A DNA stretch of 64,000 bases. Source: Thelephora terrestris. Taxonomy: Eukaryota > Basidiomycota > Agaricomycetes > Thelephorales > Thelephoraceae. The stretch is taken from NCBI GenBank assembly GCA_015956445.1, contig WIUZ02000008.1, positions 248,001 through 312,000 on the forward strand. Direction: 5' to 3'. The position numbers were made by a program, and so were the translations under genes. Shown here one piece after another: positions 52,955-57,285 of this stretch. Positions within the stretch are counted from its first letter, which is position 1; every line of letters starts with the position of its first letter. The notes beneath the pieces are model-generated. The model saw only the letters and a program-made list of their open reading frames with translations, did not search any database and was not told the DNA's origin.

Positions 52955-55900
52955 CTACTTACGGTAAAGTCTCAGCACGAGGTCCAAAACGAAATAGCGA
53001 AACATTTGATAATAACTCACTGTAGAAACCGTCTCATCCCCAACTATCCCATCATCATCATCTTCTACGCCAGGAGGAAGCGGTTGCCAGGTTGTCGCAA
53101 CTCGTTCCAAAAACTCAAGGATGGATTCAATGGTGGGGCGGTCTGTCGGCTGTGGTGACCAGCACTGTTCCAGGGTCCTCCATAAATCGTCCGTGAACCA
53201 CGGCCTTTCTGGCCTTTTTGGGCGTTTGCCTCCGGTGATCATCCGTATGACAATGACATCTCGAAACTGATTGTAGGGAGCCCGGCCACTGAGCACCTCG
53301 AGTATGACCATTCCCAGGGCATAACAATCCGATGCCTTAGTTGGCCGACTGTCCTTCAAATTGAAGTCCTCTGGAGCCAGAAGCTCTGGGCTCATCCATG
53401 GTATAGTGCCGGCAGTCGCGACTGAACTTGAGGCCGTAGCATATGCGGGGTCCGAGACAATCGTAAGAAGTCCAAAGTCTGCTATGCGTGCACGATCGTT
53501 ATCGTCGACCAAGATGTTTGCCTGGGGGGAAAAGAGCATCAGGAAGGGGTGCAGCAATTAATCCTCAAACTTGTACCCCCTTCAGATCTCCATGTACCAT
53601 CGCTTGGCTGTGCATATACATCAACCCACTAGTGACGTCTTTGAGCTATCGGAAGGGTGATGAGCATCAGGTGCAGCCAGCAGCGGGGACAACATACAAG
53701 CTCGAACCGATTCACATCCCGATTGTCCCTGATGAACTCTTTGATATTCCCATTATTCATCCACTCTGAGATCATCACGAAACAGCGATCGCGCATCATC
53801 ACTCCTAACAATGGTAACACGTTTGGATGGCGGAGAGACTTCCAAGCAATGGCCTCCTTGCAAAACCTCTGCGGCGATAAAAATCAGCTTACGAATAAAT
53901 TGACTTCCACAAACTATGGGAACCCACCCTCGTGATCTTCTCAAAGTTGTTACTCGTGCAAACCCTCAGCACCTTGACCGCGACGTGGTAATCTTGGTAT
54001 TGGCCTTTCCAGACATCAGCGTATCCGCCCTGATACAGTGGGTCATCCGACCGGTCATATTGAAGTTGGATTCTGACGGATCTTGGAAGTAAACCCAAAC
54101 GACCACAGATCTTGCGCAAAGCACCCAGGCATTTCTCCTGGAGCCATGGTGGCAGTATATCTGATGTCTAAGAATGTCAAATGTCAAGTCACTGGGCCCA
54201 ATCTTCCGAGGTGAAAGAACGGGGAAGTACCTCATCTATCACATCGACAAGGGTCTGGGCATCATCTCCATGTAGATGTTTTACCATATCAGCTTCAGTA
54301 TTGTCGGAAAAGATTGCTGTTATCAAGGAGATGCGCTCGTCTGCGGGGAGAGGACGGTCAATCAAGTGTTTCCATGCCGGAATCAGAGGCTCGTGTCTCT
54401 CCGTCAATGTCTGGGGTTCCAGCTCAGTATTACCGACAGGTTGGTCTTGAGGTCCTGGTTCATGTGCTCCACTTGTTGACTGCAGTCCCAAAGCCGAGTA
54501 TGTAAAATTGAGCCCTGGAGCATCTGCATTCGGGTCGGTGTTCGACGATGTGTGTAAAGTCAGTTGAAGAGCATCGACCGCCAAGCGATGAATGTGTTGA
54601 GAGGATGCGCGGACGGTCCCTAGGTATCCCGTTACATAACGGGAACAGTTGTTGACAAGGTCAAGTGTGGCTGATTCCTGAATCAAGTCTGAGGATGACT
54701 GGCAAGACATCAAGCGTGGAACATCGACGCACCTCCAGCCGGTCTGCAGCAGCTTGTAACGCTTCCACCGCAGTTCTTGCGGCACCAAGCACGCTGAGTA
54801 CTTCCAACCAGAACAGAAACTTCGTCTCCAAGAATCGATGGATGACAGATGTGATTTCGTGTGTGTTGACCAATGTTGTGTATCCGCCAACCAGGTGTGT
54901 GTGCCAAGATCTACATGCATATTGCAAACCTGGACAGATGTACCGTTCGACCTTCTCCTCCAGGTCGCTGACCACTGAGTTTGTGACTGCATCTGGGAGC
55001 TTGCAAATGTTCTTCTCCAGCTGTCGATTCATTAGATCGAGGCAGCCGATCAGGAGCGCCGAGTGGCAAGCGGGAGGAGAGACATGGAACCTCGGTTCGC
55101 ACCTAGACTGATCGGTAATAAAGTGGGAGAAGGATTTGTGGAAGGGTCGAACAGGGGAATTTATGTCCTCCCGGAGGATAAGGAGTGATCGAACCGATGA
55201 CAAGATGGGGAGCACGCAGTCCAAGGCGTCGTCAAGGCCCAAGAGCATGGAAATCGTGGATGGGGAAACGGGATTTGCGGCGAGGATCATGGCACCGAGC
55301 ACCGAGGGAACCATGGGGTCAATGTCCGGATCGTCGAAAGCCTTCCGAAGAATTGATGTATAGACTGAATCGAGGGTTGTGTTTCCCTCCAACCTTGTCT
55401 TCCCTTCACGTACACTGCACTGGGGTGATTGTAGAAGGAGGTCCAAGCGCCCCCGGGGGTTCGCGTACAAACTGTCGATGAACTTGACTGTTGCTACAGC
55501 ATACGCAAAAAACCCCGCAGCCCGTTCGCAAAGGAGGTCCATCTGTTCTTTCGTGGGCCAGTCATCCAAATCGCCTCGACGGCGTGCGATATTCGATAAC
55601 TCGTGCCTGAAGAATAGCAGCATATCGTTTGCTACTTGCCTCGATTCAACCTCGTGGAGAACGAACACGTCCGTCGCTTTTGCCAACGGCGGGAGACGGA
55701 AGCCTTCCCAGATCTGGGGATCTGGGCGACTGGTGACGAAAAATTTGACCTTTGGAACTTCAGAGACAAATTGCCCAAGGACGAACAGGATGGCAGAAGC
55801 AGGCTCCCCATCAATGCATTCGTCCAGAGCGTCGATGACGATCACCGTAGAAATCCCGGACTTCTTGAGGGGTTGGACGATCAACTTGTACATCTGGTTG

Positions 55901-57285
55901 TACAGTGACTCGTGGAAGATGTCTGGGTCGGACCTGACCCGAGGGAGAAAGAGCGATCGAAACTCGGCGTACTTGCGCGCGAGCTGGACAGCGATGGTGG
56001 GCCAGATCAAGTGGATGTTGCTCCGTTCCTCAAAGGCCCGCGAACAGGAGAAGGAAGCACCGAGCTGTCCGCACGCGAGAATCCTTTCCGCGATTGTCTG
56101 GGTAATGGTGGTCTTCCCCGTCCCGGCCAGCCCGTGCAACCAGCAAACAGGGGGCCTAGAAAAGTCCGTGGTCCAGCGTTCAATCTCGTCTAGAAGAGTC
56201 ACGCGGGTTCCCTTCAGACAACCTCCCCCGCCGCGCCTGAATTCAGCCCCCAGTGCACGGCGCGAGTTATTGAGAATAAGCATTTCGTCTGTCGAAAGTT
56301 TGTGTCAGGCATGTACGACCGAAAACAGAGGGTTTTCTGACTTCGGCTCTGCGGAGAGGTTATTTCGTTTGCTCAGTCGCGAGTGGGGACCACTCACAAT
56401 CAGCAGAAGCTCTTGATCATAGACCTTTTGTTGCCGTCCAATCTGTTGTCCCTGTTAACATCTACGATGGCGTCAGGGTGAAGAGCTAACCTGGGACTCA
56501 AATATAACCTCTCGTAGGTCTTCGAGAAGGTTGAATATGTTTCCATCGTCCTGAACGTCGCCCAGGAGTTGCTGCGACCCTTGCTGCTGGTACGCCAAGC
56601 GAAGCTGTTGCTCGATTCCATTGAGATCACTGGAGGGAATTTAACACCGAGTACGGTAGGGCAAAGTATGTAGCATACTGCGTCACTTTATCCCGATGTA
56701 TTAGTTCTTCAGCGTCACTTAGGGGTAAACCAAAGCGTATTTCCAACGCGTCTACACGCGCGATAAGGTCACGGGCCTTGCGTTCAATGTGGATGGTTTC
56801 CTGCGGGTGCGTTTGTAAGAGAGATTGGAGCGAGGTGTCGTAAACGTACCTCGCGACGAGAGTAAATGTCGGAGACCGCTTCCAGGACAGCTTGAAGCGA
56901 ATCGTACGGATGTGCGCCTCGGTCGATATGTTCATCTTCGGGAGATATCCATGTTGGTCGCTCGGCGAACTGATAGGAGAGCGCACCCACCTGTAACACC
57001 ATCGTCGGGTCGGGCAGTCTGGGTTGAAGCTCCCGATGGGTGCGATCGATCACTGCCACCGTCTCGAAGTTCGATCTGAGAACCCCTTCCACCGTTTACA
57101 CCTGCCACGGTGGTTAGATTAACGCCATCCCTTTCGAGGCCCTATTAAGCGGGGTCACCTTCCGATTTACTATTCGGATCTAGCTCTGGGCTCATTCCGA
57201 GAGGTACTCCGTCTGCGATATCATGATCCGGGGAAGGGATGTCCGATTGGAGAGGTTTCTTAGCTTTTTTGAAGAAGCGACGCAT
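52955..57285 (-). CDS. NLR/STAND protein: helical N-terminus, NACHT ATPase, C-terminal protein kinase
   Basis: Eleven minus-strand exons can be traced (57285-57159, 57101-56850, 56800-56679, 56629-56509, 56451-56398, ~56288-54733, 54677-54231, 54167-53928, 53868-53698, 53645-53577, 53521-52955), about 1240 residues. Residues ~1-225 are basic then helical. The NACHT has WLHGLAGTGKTTITQTIAER (Walker A) and VIVIDALDEC (Walker B), and a helical arm ends EALQAAADRLE. From there, across two clean phase-0 introns, the frame enters a TKL-like kinase: GGYADVWKGQ, VAVKVL, MVHGDLKGANIL, IADFGL, MSPELL. No stop or new start lies between. NACHT proteins are signal sensors; a kinase output is inferred. Weak points: a frame slip near 57000 against the paralogue at 63522 (ATG 57002 may be the real start), and an unresolved junction at 56290-56400. 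Confidence 0.78.

Follow-up and report, generated by a model that had tools for sequence, protein, structure and literature searches.

Fungal NLRs are numerous, and the outputs of many of them are unknown. Protein kinase domains have been described in such receptors, as follows. In the domain passages of Dyrka et al. 2014 (PMC4986451), PKinase appears in the table of N-terminal domains; that is, a kinase and a NOD share one protein, with the kinase among the N-terminal effector domains. The kinase passages of PMC12258605 report PKinase in 12 Sordariales NLRs; in nine of them it is C-terminal, and these are monophyletic and CHK2-like. These T-NACHT NLRs, from Chaetomiaceae and Podosporaceae, have the canonical tripartite architecture, a single integration is proposed for them, and they are read there as candidate decoys. 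No C-terminal kinase NLR is mentioned in the kinase passages of PMC12881547 and PMC10197012, and in PMC9815663 the word "kinase" occurs in two references only.

Here, we describe a gene predicted to encode a NACHT NLR that ends in a protein kinase. It lies in a stretch of 64,000 nucleotides (the window), which spans C59:248001-312000 of a contig of 1,800,789 bases. An earlier note made from the sequence had treated the host as an agaric; it is instead Thelephora terrestris, a mycorrhizal fungus of the Thelephorales.

The same note had considered kinases to be mainly N-terminal partners of fungal NLRs, which leaves out the nine Sordariales cases (kinase passages of PMC12258605). Fungal NLRs with a kinase at the C-terminus are thus already known; what is new here is the predicted TKL kinase in place of repeats. 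The Sordariales proteins and the Thelephora protein are alike in being fungal NACHT NLRs with a C-terminal kinase and a single proposed integration. They differ in that the Sordariales receptors, as those passages present them, keep their repeats and carry a CHK2/PRD-4-like kinase, whereas in the basidiomycete the repeats are replaced and the kinase is of the TKL type. In the Thelephora protein, Pfam finds no propeller or other repeats beside the kinase, PF07714 outscores PF00069, and the best database matches are Thelephora TKL-type kinases; the last two observations speak indirectly against a CHK2 origin. Compared with the N-terminal PKinase NLRs of PMC4986451, as they appear in its domain passages, the shared property is a kinase and a NOD in one protein, and the difference is the C-terminal position of the kinase. 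We found no report of this fusion in Thelephora or another basidiomycete in the titles and abstract openings of the open-licence papers listed.

Gene Model and Domain Assignments

Exon-by-exon assembly gives a single open frame on the minus strand, with 13 exons and 12 introns between 57285 and 52955 of the window (Table 1). The order of domains is an N-terminal helical region, a P-loop NTPase (NPHP3_N/NACHT), a helical arm, a low-similarity joint of ~65 residues, a helical module of ~85 residues, and a complete TKL kinase. The frame opens with the ATG at 57285 and closes with the TAG at 52957-52955. There are two options for the gene end, as follows. The last exon may read through to 52955, giving 1,231 aa, or it may end at 53021 and be followed by a small intron from 53020 and a TAG, giving 1,207 aa. 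The second agrees with P0233, the GenBank model of a neighbouring copy (copy 2, below), and both ends remain candidates.

Table 1. Features of the fusion gene, its neighbouring copies, and related stretches. Positions are those of the window unless a contig (C) or locus (L) is named.
Feature	Position	Strand	Basis or remark
Exons 1-7, N-terminal region	56342..57285	-	spliced alignment to P0007 and assembled model
Exons 1-4	57285-57159, 57101-56991, 56935-56850, 56800-56679	-	
Exons 5-7	56629-56491, 56451-56398, 56348-56342 (7-nt micro-exon)	-	
Exon 8, NPHP3_N/NACHT-type P-loop NTPase and helical arm	56288-54733	-	Pfam PF24883, 89.5 bits; paralog identity
Exon 9 (fusion exon)	54677-54231	-	front like propeller NLRs, rear like other kinases
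Exons 10-13, remainder of module and complete TKL kinase	52955..54167	-	Pfam PF07714, 161.6 bits
Exons 10-13 individually	54167-53928, 53868-53698, 53645-53577, 53521 onward	-	
Only in-frame ATG between NACHT exon and end of exon 10, window copy	54285..54287	-	possible alternative start
Copy 2 (L001)	about C59:311.5-315.8 kb; L001 about 522-4821		same exon order
5' end of copy 2, continuing past the window	63522..64000	+	
Copy 3 (L002)	about C59:318.1-322.3 kb		same exon order
Upstream stretch	57402..57658	-	relatives 70-72% identical directly upstream of copies 2 and 3

The exons upstream of the NACHT exon were modelled by spliced alignment to a neighbouring NLR, P0007. As a positive control, the method was applied to P0007 in its own locus, where it recovered residues 1-290 and eight introns; the structure obtained for the window resembles this one. 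With P0007 as guide, the 7-nt micro-exon and the boundary between exons 2 and 3 were set by hand. A 37-nt intron placed by the aligner at 56997-56961 was dropped for 56990-56936, which agrees in phase and position with one of the introns in the neighbouring NLR, and the aligner's long intron 56390-56289 was exchanged for two introns flanking the micro-exon. The micro-exon directly precedes the NACHT exon, its position is common to the neighbouring propeller NLR, and the aligner found one in copy 2.

The coordinates given in the earlier note and the motifs that it listed (Walker A GLAGTGKTT, Walker B VIDALDEC, here read as VIVIDALDEC, VAVK, HGDLKGAN, and ADFG) were all re-read in the sequence. 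Its claim of a frame without stops across two introns (54732-54678 and 54230-54168) holds, an open frame being found there. The in-frame joining of a NACHT domain to a complete C-terminal kinase, its main proposal, is borne out by the same exon order in two diverged paralogs and by both Pfam domains, which pass their cut-offs on the joined core. The introns had been described as phase 0, which is correct for the five junctions from the NACHT exon onward to the kinase but not for all introns upstream of the NACHT exon.

In the joined core of 993 aa, NPHP3_N (PF24883) scores 89.5 bits against a cut-off of 24.8, and PK_Tyr_Ser-Thr (PF07714) scores 161.6 bits against 23.1. NACHT (PF05729), at 25.8 bits, is slightly under its cut-off of 26.7. 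A NACHT-type P-loop NTPase with Walker A and B motifs, as expected of a fungal NLR or STAND protein, is present. C-terminal repeats of the WD40, ANK, TPR, or HEAT types were sought in this core with Pfam at E 0.001 and none was found, the kinase standing there instead. The higher score for PF07714 (161.6 bits) than for PF00069 (130.6 bits) places the kinase in the TKL group. For P0239, a member of the family other than the window kinase, EGFR comes first among solved relatives, which are mostly RAF, with CTR1 and TNNI3K besides (best 60 of 169). In the window kinase, the catalytic Lys, the αC Glu, the HxD Asp, the Asn, and the DFG are all present.

At the N-terminus, the helical region has a homologue in the corresponding part of P0007 and is common to other Thelephora NLRs; it has no Pfam match up to E 5. 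An MLKL-like four-helix bundle is a candidate fold for this region; no MLKL is among the 26 matches up to E 10 to a profile of ten NLR N-termini. The same profile matched nothing convincing among solved structures, with the best hit, a GCN4 construct, at E 0.06. For the pre-kinase module, a death-fold is likewise a candidate (eight matches up to E 10, none convincing); its top structure matches were TORTIFOLIA1 at E 0.23 and, second, a TNFAIP8-like protein at E 0.26.

Three Neighbouring Copies

Two further copies of the fusion adjoin the window gene, and all three lie inside ~22 kb. Among the three, the NTPase exons are 70-73% identical and the kinases 83-94% identical. The window NTPase exon shares 69-73% identity with its counterparts in copies 2 and 3 and in the neighbouring propeller NLR. 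The five shared introns, 8-12, are GT-AG in all three copies. In a tree with 75 of 110 reference NTPases, the NTPases of the three copies form one clade (SH-aLRT 99), and in a tree with the best 70 kinases passing a length filter, the kinases do so as well (SH-aLRT 100). Both trees are quick searches without bootstrap; for copies 2 and 3, the GenBank proteins counted as duplicates and did not enter. Since the NTPases form a clade and so do the kinases, a single fusion event preceded the duplications.

In a genome survey, 150 of the 182 NPHP3_N candidates were scored and their positions compared with those of at least 196 listed kinase places, and only the three fusion copies have a listed kinase less than 3 kb downstream on the same strand. 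At C12:2028891 (L007 about 1335-7862), an NLR is preceded at 2.2-2.8 kb by a kinase in the same orientation. We did not read this arrangement as an N-terminal fusion; it looks like two separate genes, a kinase and a propeller NLR, since similarity to P0239 reaches nearly to the end of that protein's tail and the NLR runs into a propeller.

Several further observations concern the surroundings of the copies. Exon 1 of copy 3 is tandemly repeated (L002 2113-2390) as two open 138-nt units that agree at 133 of 138 positions. The stretch at 57400-57900 of the window has relatives upstream of copies 2 and 3, and mostly the other part of it recurs a few hundred bases downstream of each of the three copies. 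Relatives of the upstream stretch are at C59:311188-311408, 317811-318029, 300373-300594, 316161-316268, and 322771-322830; all six matches to it fall within the fusion-gene cluster. A pair of 80-nt segments, 88% alike, is found at 52373-52452 and 57601-57680. Between the two divergent fusion copies there is a minus-strand open frame, 58811-58999, with a start that resembles a signal peptide.

The Fusion Exon and the Origin of the Joint

Exon 9 is composite. Its first ~34 residues match the end of the arm of propeller NLRs, the joint of ~65 residues follows, and its last 51 residues match the front of the module that precedes kinases. Intron 8 is at the NLR's own site, by comparison with L003, and intron 9 is at the site used by the kinase family. 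Because the front of exon 9 is NLR-like, its rear is module-like, and the introns on its two sides are at the respective parental sites, the predicted breakpoint is inside exon 9.

The two parental types are represented in the genome. Like the Thelephora NACHT-propeller NLRs (P0007 and the gene from L003 5059), the fusion gene has the N-terminal region, the micro-exon, the NTPase exon, the position of intron 8, and the arm end; those NLRs then run into a β-propeller, whereas the fusion gene runs into joint, module, and kinase. Like the Thelephora tandem TKL kinases (P0002 and P0004; L006, L011, and others), it has the module directly before the kinase and an intron at the same place, behind VIDE. 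In the tandem kinases, however, another kinase domain precedes the module, and in the fusion gene the NTPase does.

The earlier note had likened the linker to the region before other kinases, and this resemblance is real, the ~85-residue module standing before many of the genome's other kinases. It occurs in at least 22 further places; 21 of 22 listed were re-tested, and the module match was obtained again in 18. Behind the module, the intron begins with GT in 11 of these 18 loci and with GC in six. The six loci with GC rather than GT after the module-ending exon are L011, L012, L013, L017, L019, and L023, which suggests GC-AG introns there.

In ten of the 18 loci, a kinase exon lies no more than 100 nt upstream of the module, that is, the module bridges a tandem kinase; in two more, a kinase exon is 472 and 495 nt upstream. 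Free-standing kinases with the module also exist (P0239, in L021, and P0240). The fusion had been attributed to the joining of a free-standing kinase gene to an NLR. Fusion, single origin, and three descendants are upheld, but the kinase more probably came from the rear unit of a tandem-kinase gene, since the module sits behind a kinase exon in ten of the 18 loci. The sequences support the view that an NLR gene lost its C-terminal β-propeller and gained, within one exon, a kinase unit of the tandem-kinase rear type, consisting of helical module and TKL kinase, and that this fusion occurred once and was later duplicated.

One Gene or Two

Our model of a single fused gene is, in our judgement, highly probable. 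The alternative is that of two adjacent genes, in which a C-terminally truncated NLR would stop no later than intron 9 and an internal ATG would open a kinase gene of its own, and we consider it improbable. In its favor, GenBank splits both neighbouring copies. For copy 2, P0003 ends inside intron 9 (L001 about 3545-3613) and P0233 begins in exon 10; for copy 3 (L002 4780-5206), intron 8 is read through in P0012, and the start of P0234 is inside the fusion exon. The split points are, however, not alike between the copies. Among the GenBank T. terrestris proteins, P0012 is 100% identical to L002 over 576 aa, and P0007 is 100% identical to L003 along two long stretches. P0234 and our copy-3 model part at the junction of exons 11 and 12, which has GTTTGT as its donor. 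No model of the NACHT half of the window copy is among the database matches listed, and none of the 307 listed database proteins has both domains in one protein at E 1e-5 (each list giving the top 120 out of as many as 8,000 candidates that were scored).

A possible start for a separate kinase gene is also present. The earlier note had denied any alternative start between the two domains, which is not strictly correct, as there is an in-frame ATG at 54287, and P0234 begins at the corresponding ATG of copy 3. This ATG is absent from copy 2. From the NTPase exon as far as the end of exon 10, one methionine is common to the window copy and copy 3 and another to copies 2 and 3, but none is common to all three, and a start at the window ATG would halve the conserved module. 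Read-through of intron 9, as the two-gene alternative allows, meets a stop in all three copies. On the side of a single gene, none of AATAAA, ATTAAA, TATAAA, or TATATA occurs between 54732 and 54168.

Constraint on the fusion exon bears on the same question. Among the copies, it changes in length by multiples of three only (3, 9, and about 141-150 nt), and the length changes of the NTPase exon are also in frame; in introns 8-12, four of the five length changes are not multiples of three. That the fusion exon has remained open, its length changing in frame alone, speaks against two genes. For the whole fusion exon, window versus copy 2, amino acid changes are fewer than in a neutral simulation (P = 0.014), and the two other pairs give P = 0.12 and 0.16. 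For the joint alone, selection is not significant, as two separate genes would have it: between window and copy 2, P = 0.27 over 64 codons, with a chance of 0.26 of meeting no stop, and in the two other pairs, P = 0.88 and 0.56 over 22 codons.

State of the NTPase and the Kinase

Of the 82 columns that 44 related kinases conserve, one deviates in the window copy, one in copy 2, and six in copy 3, one of the six probably through an alignment slip. The NTPases have drifted at sites that are normally invariant: 13 of 164 invariant columns deviate in the window copy, 13 of 164 in copy 2, and 15 of 163 in copy 3. By leave-one-out scoring, the reference NTPases that deviate as much number two, two, and none, respectively, of 110, a non-random set consisting of the best database matches to the window protein. 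The drift of the NTPase at invariant columns fits a predicted role of the kinase as the maintained part.

Not every copy is intact. The Walker A of copy 2 is GLAGTWKT, with Trp for the invariant P-loop glycine; copy 3 has an altered glycine loop, a frame shift in the tail behind the kinase (last exon), and the repeated exon 1. The window copy is the only one in which both engines look whole.

Across the three copies, the NTPase exon has a Ka/Ks of 0.44-0.56 and the kinase one of 0.20-0.52. For the kinase, window versus copy 2 gives 0.20, and the pairs with copy 3 are higher (0.52 and 0.32). In the last exon, window and copy 2 are separated by a Ks of 0.038, and this low value suggests gene conversion there, which would also raise kinase identity.

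It could be argued that the locus holds a decaying chimera, whose NTPase half is degrading and whose joint function is without selection; the drift of the NTPase, the P-loop Trp of copy 2, and, in copy 3, the frame-shifted tail and the doubled exon 1 would fit. We think this very unlikely, the least probable of the readings weighed here, given that the compared exons are open in all three copies except for the copy-3 tail and that Ka/Ks is 0.20-0.56 over the whole NTPase exon, the fusion exon, and the kinase. It overlaps with the other readings; our judgements of the fused gene, the decoy (below), the two genes, and decay are not exclusive of one another, and their probabilities are not required to sum to one.

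Output or Decoy

Our preferred reading, to which we give somewhat better than even chances, is one NACHT-kinase fusion gene of about 1,207-1,231 residues, one of three paralogs, with the kinase as C-terminal output. The NTPase engine would keep the protein inactive and, on activation, would cluster it, and the clustered C-terminal kinases would trans-phosphorylate one another and downstream partners. The kinase would then be an output shifted to the C-terminus. RAF- and RIPK-type kinases trans-phosphorylate when brought together, and we infer the mechanism from this behaviour, from the domain order, and from the intact catalytic motifs.

The kinase may instead be an integrated decoy or sensor. 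At the position of the ligand-sensing part, it would bait an effector, or a rival, that attacks fungal TKL kinases, and the N-terminal helical region would be the output. The kinase does take the place of the propeller, the genome's other places with the same module could mark mimicked targets, and decoys are proposed for the Sordariales C-terminal kinases in the kinase passages of PMC12258605. The kinases of the window copy and copy 2, however, keep 81 of the 82 conserved columns, the catalytic motifs, and a low Ka/Ks, and a bait needs less. The drifted part, moreover, is the NTPase, which a decoy receptor must keep. We therefore consider a decoy unlikely; from the comparisons made here, a NACHT-gated output kinase is the most likely role, and an integrated decoy is less likely.

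It is tempting to go further and to propose that the sensor of a basidiomycete NLR has been swapped for a catalytically intact TKL kinase derived from a tandem kinase, giving a NACHT-gated kinase whose NTPase is under relaxed constraint toward an oligomerising scaffold, and that this happened independently of the Sordariales. We offer this fuller account tentatively, with more doubt than confidence.

Significance

The splitting of the GenBank models of copies 2 and 3 suggests that annotation can hide such fusions. The cluster provides three natural variants, a window copy that is apparently intact, copy 2 with its P-loop Trp, and copy 3 with its altered glycine loop, and this one locus makes two questions testable, namely, whether the kinase is gated by the NTPase and whether it serves as output or as bait. 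Because the NLR engine is joined in frame to a kinase at the position of the sensing repeats, the receptor may itself be a switchable kinase.
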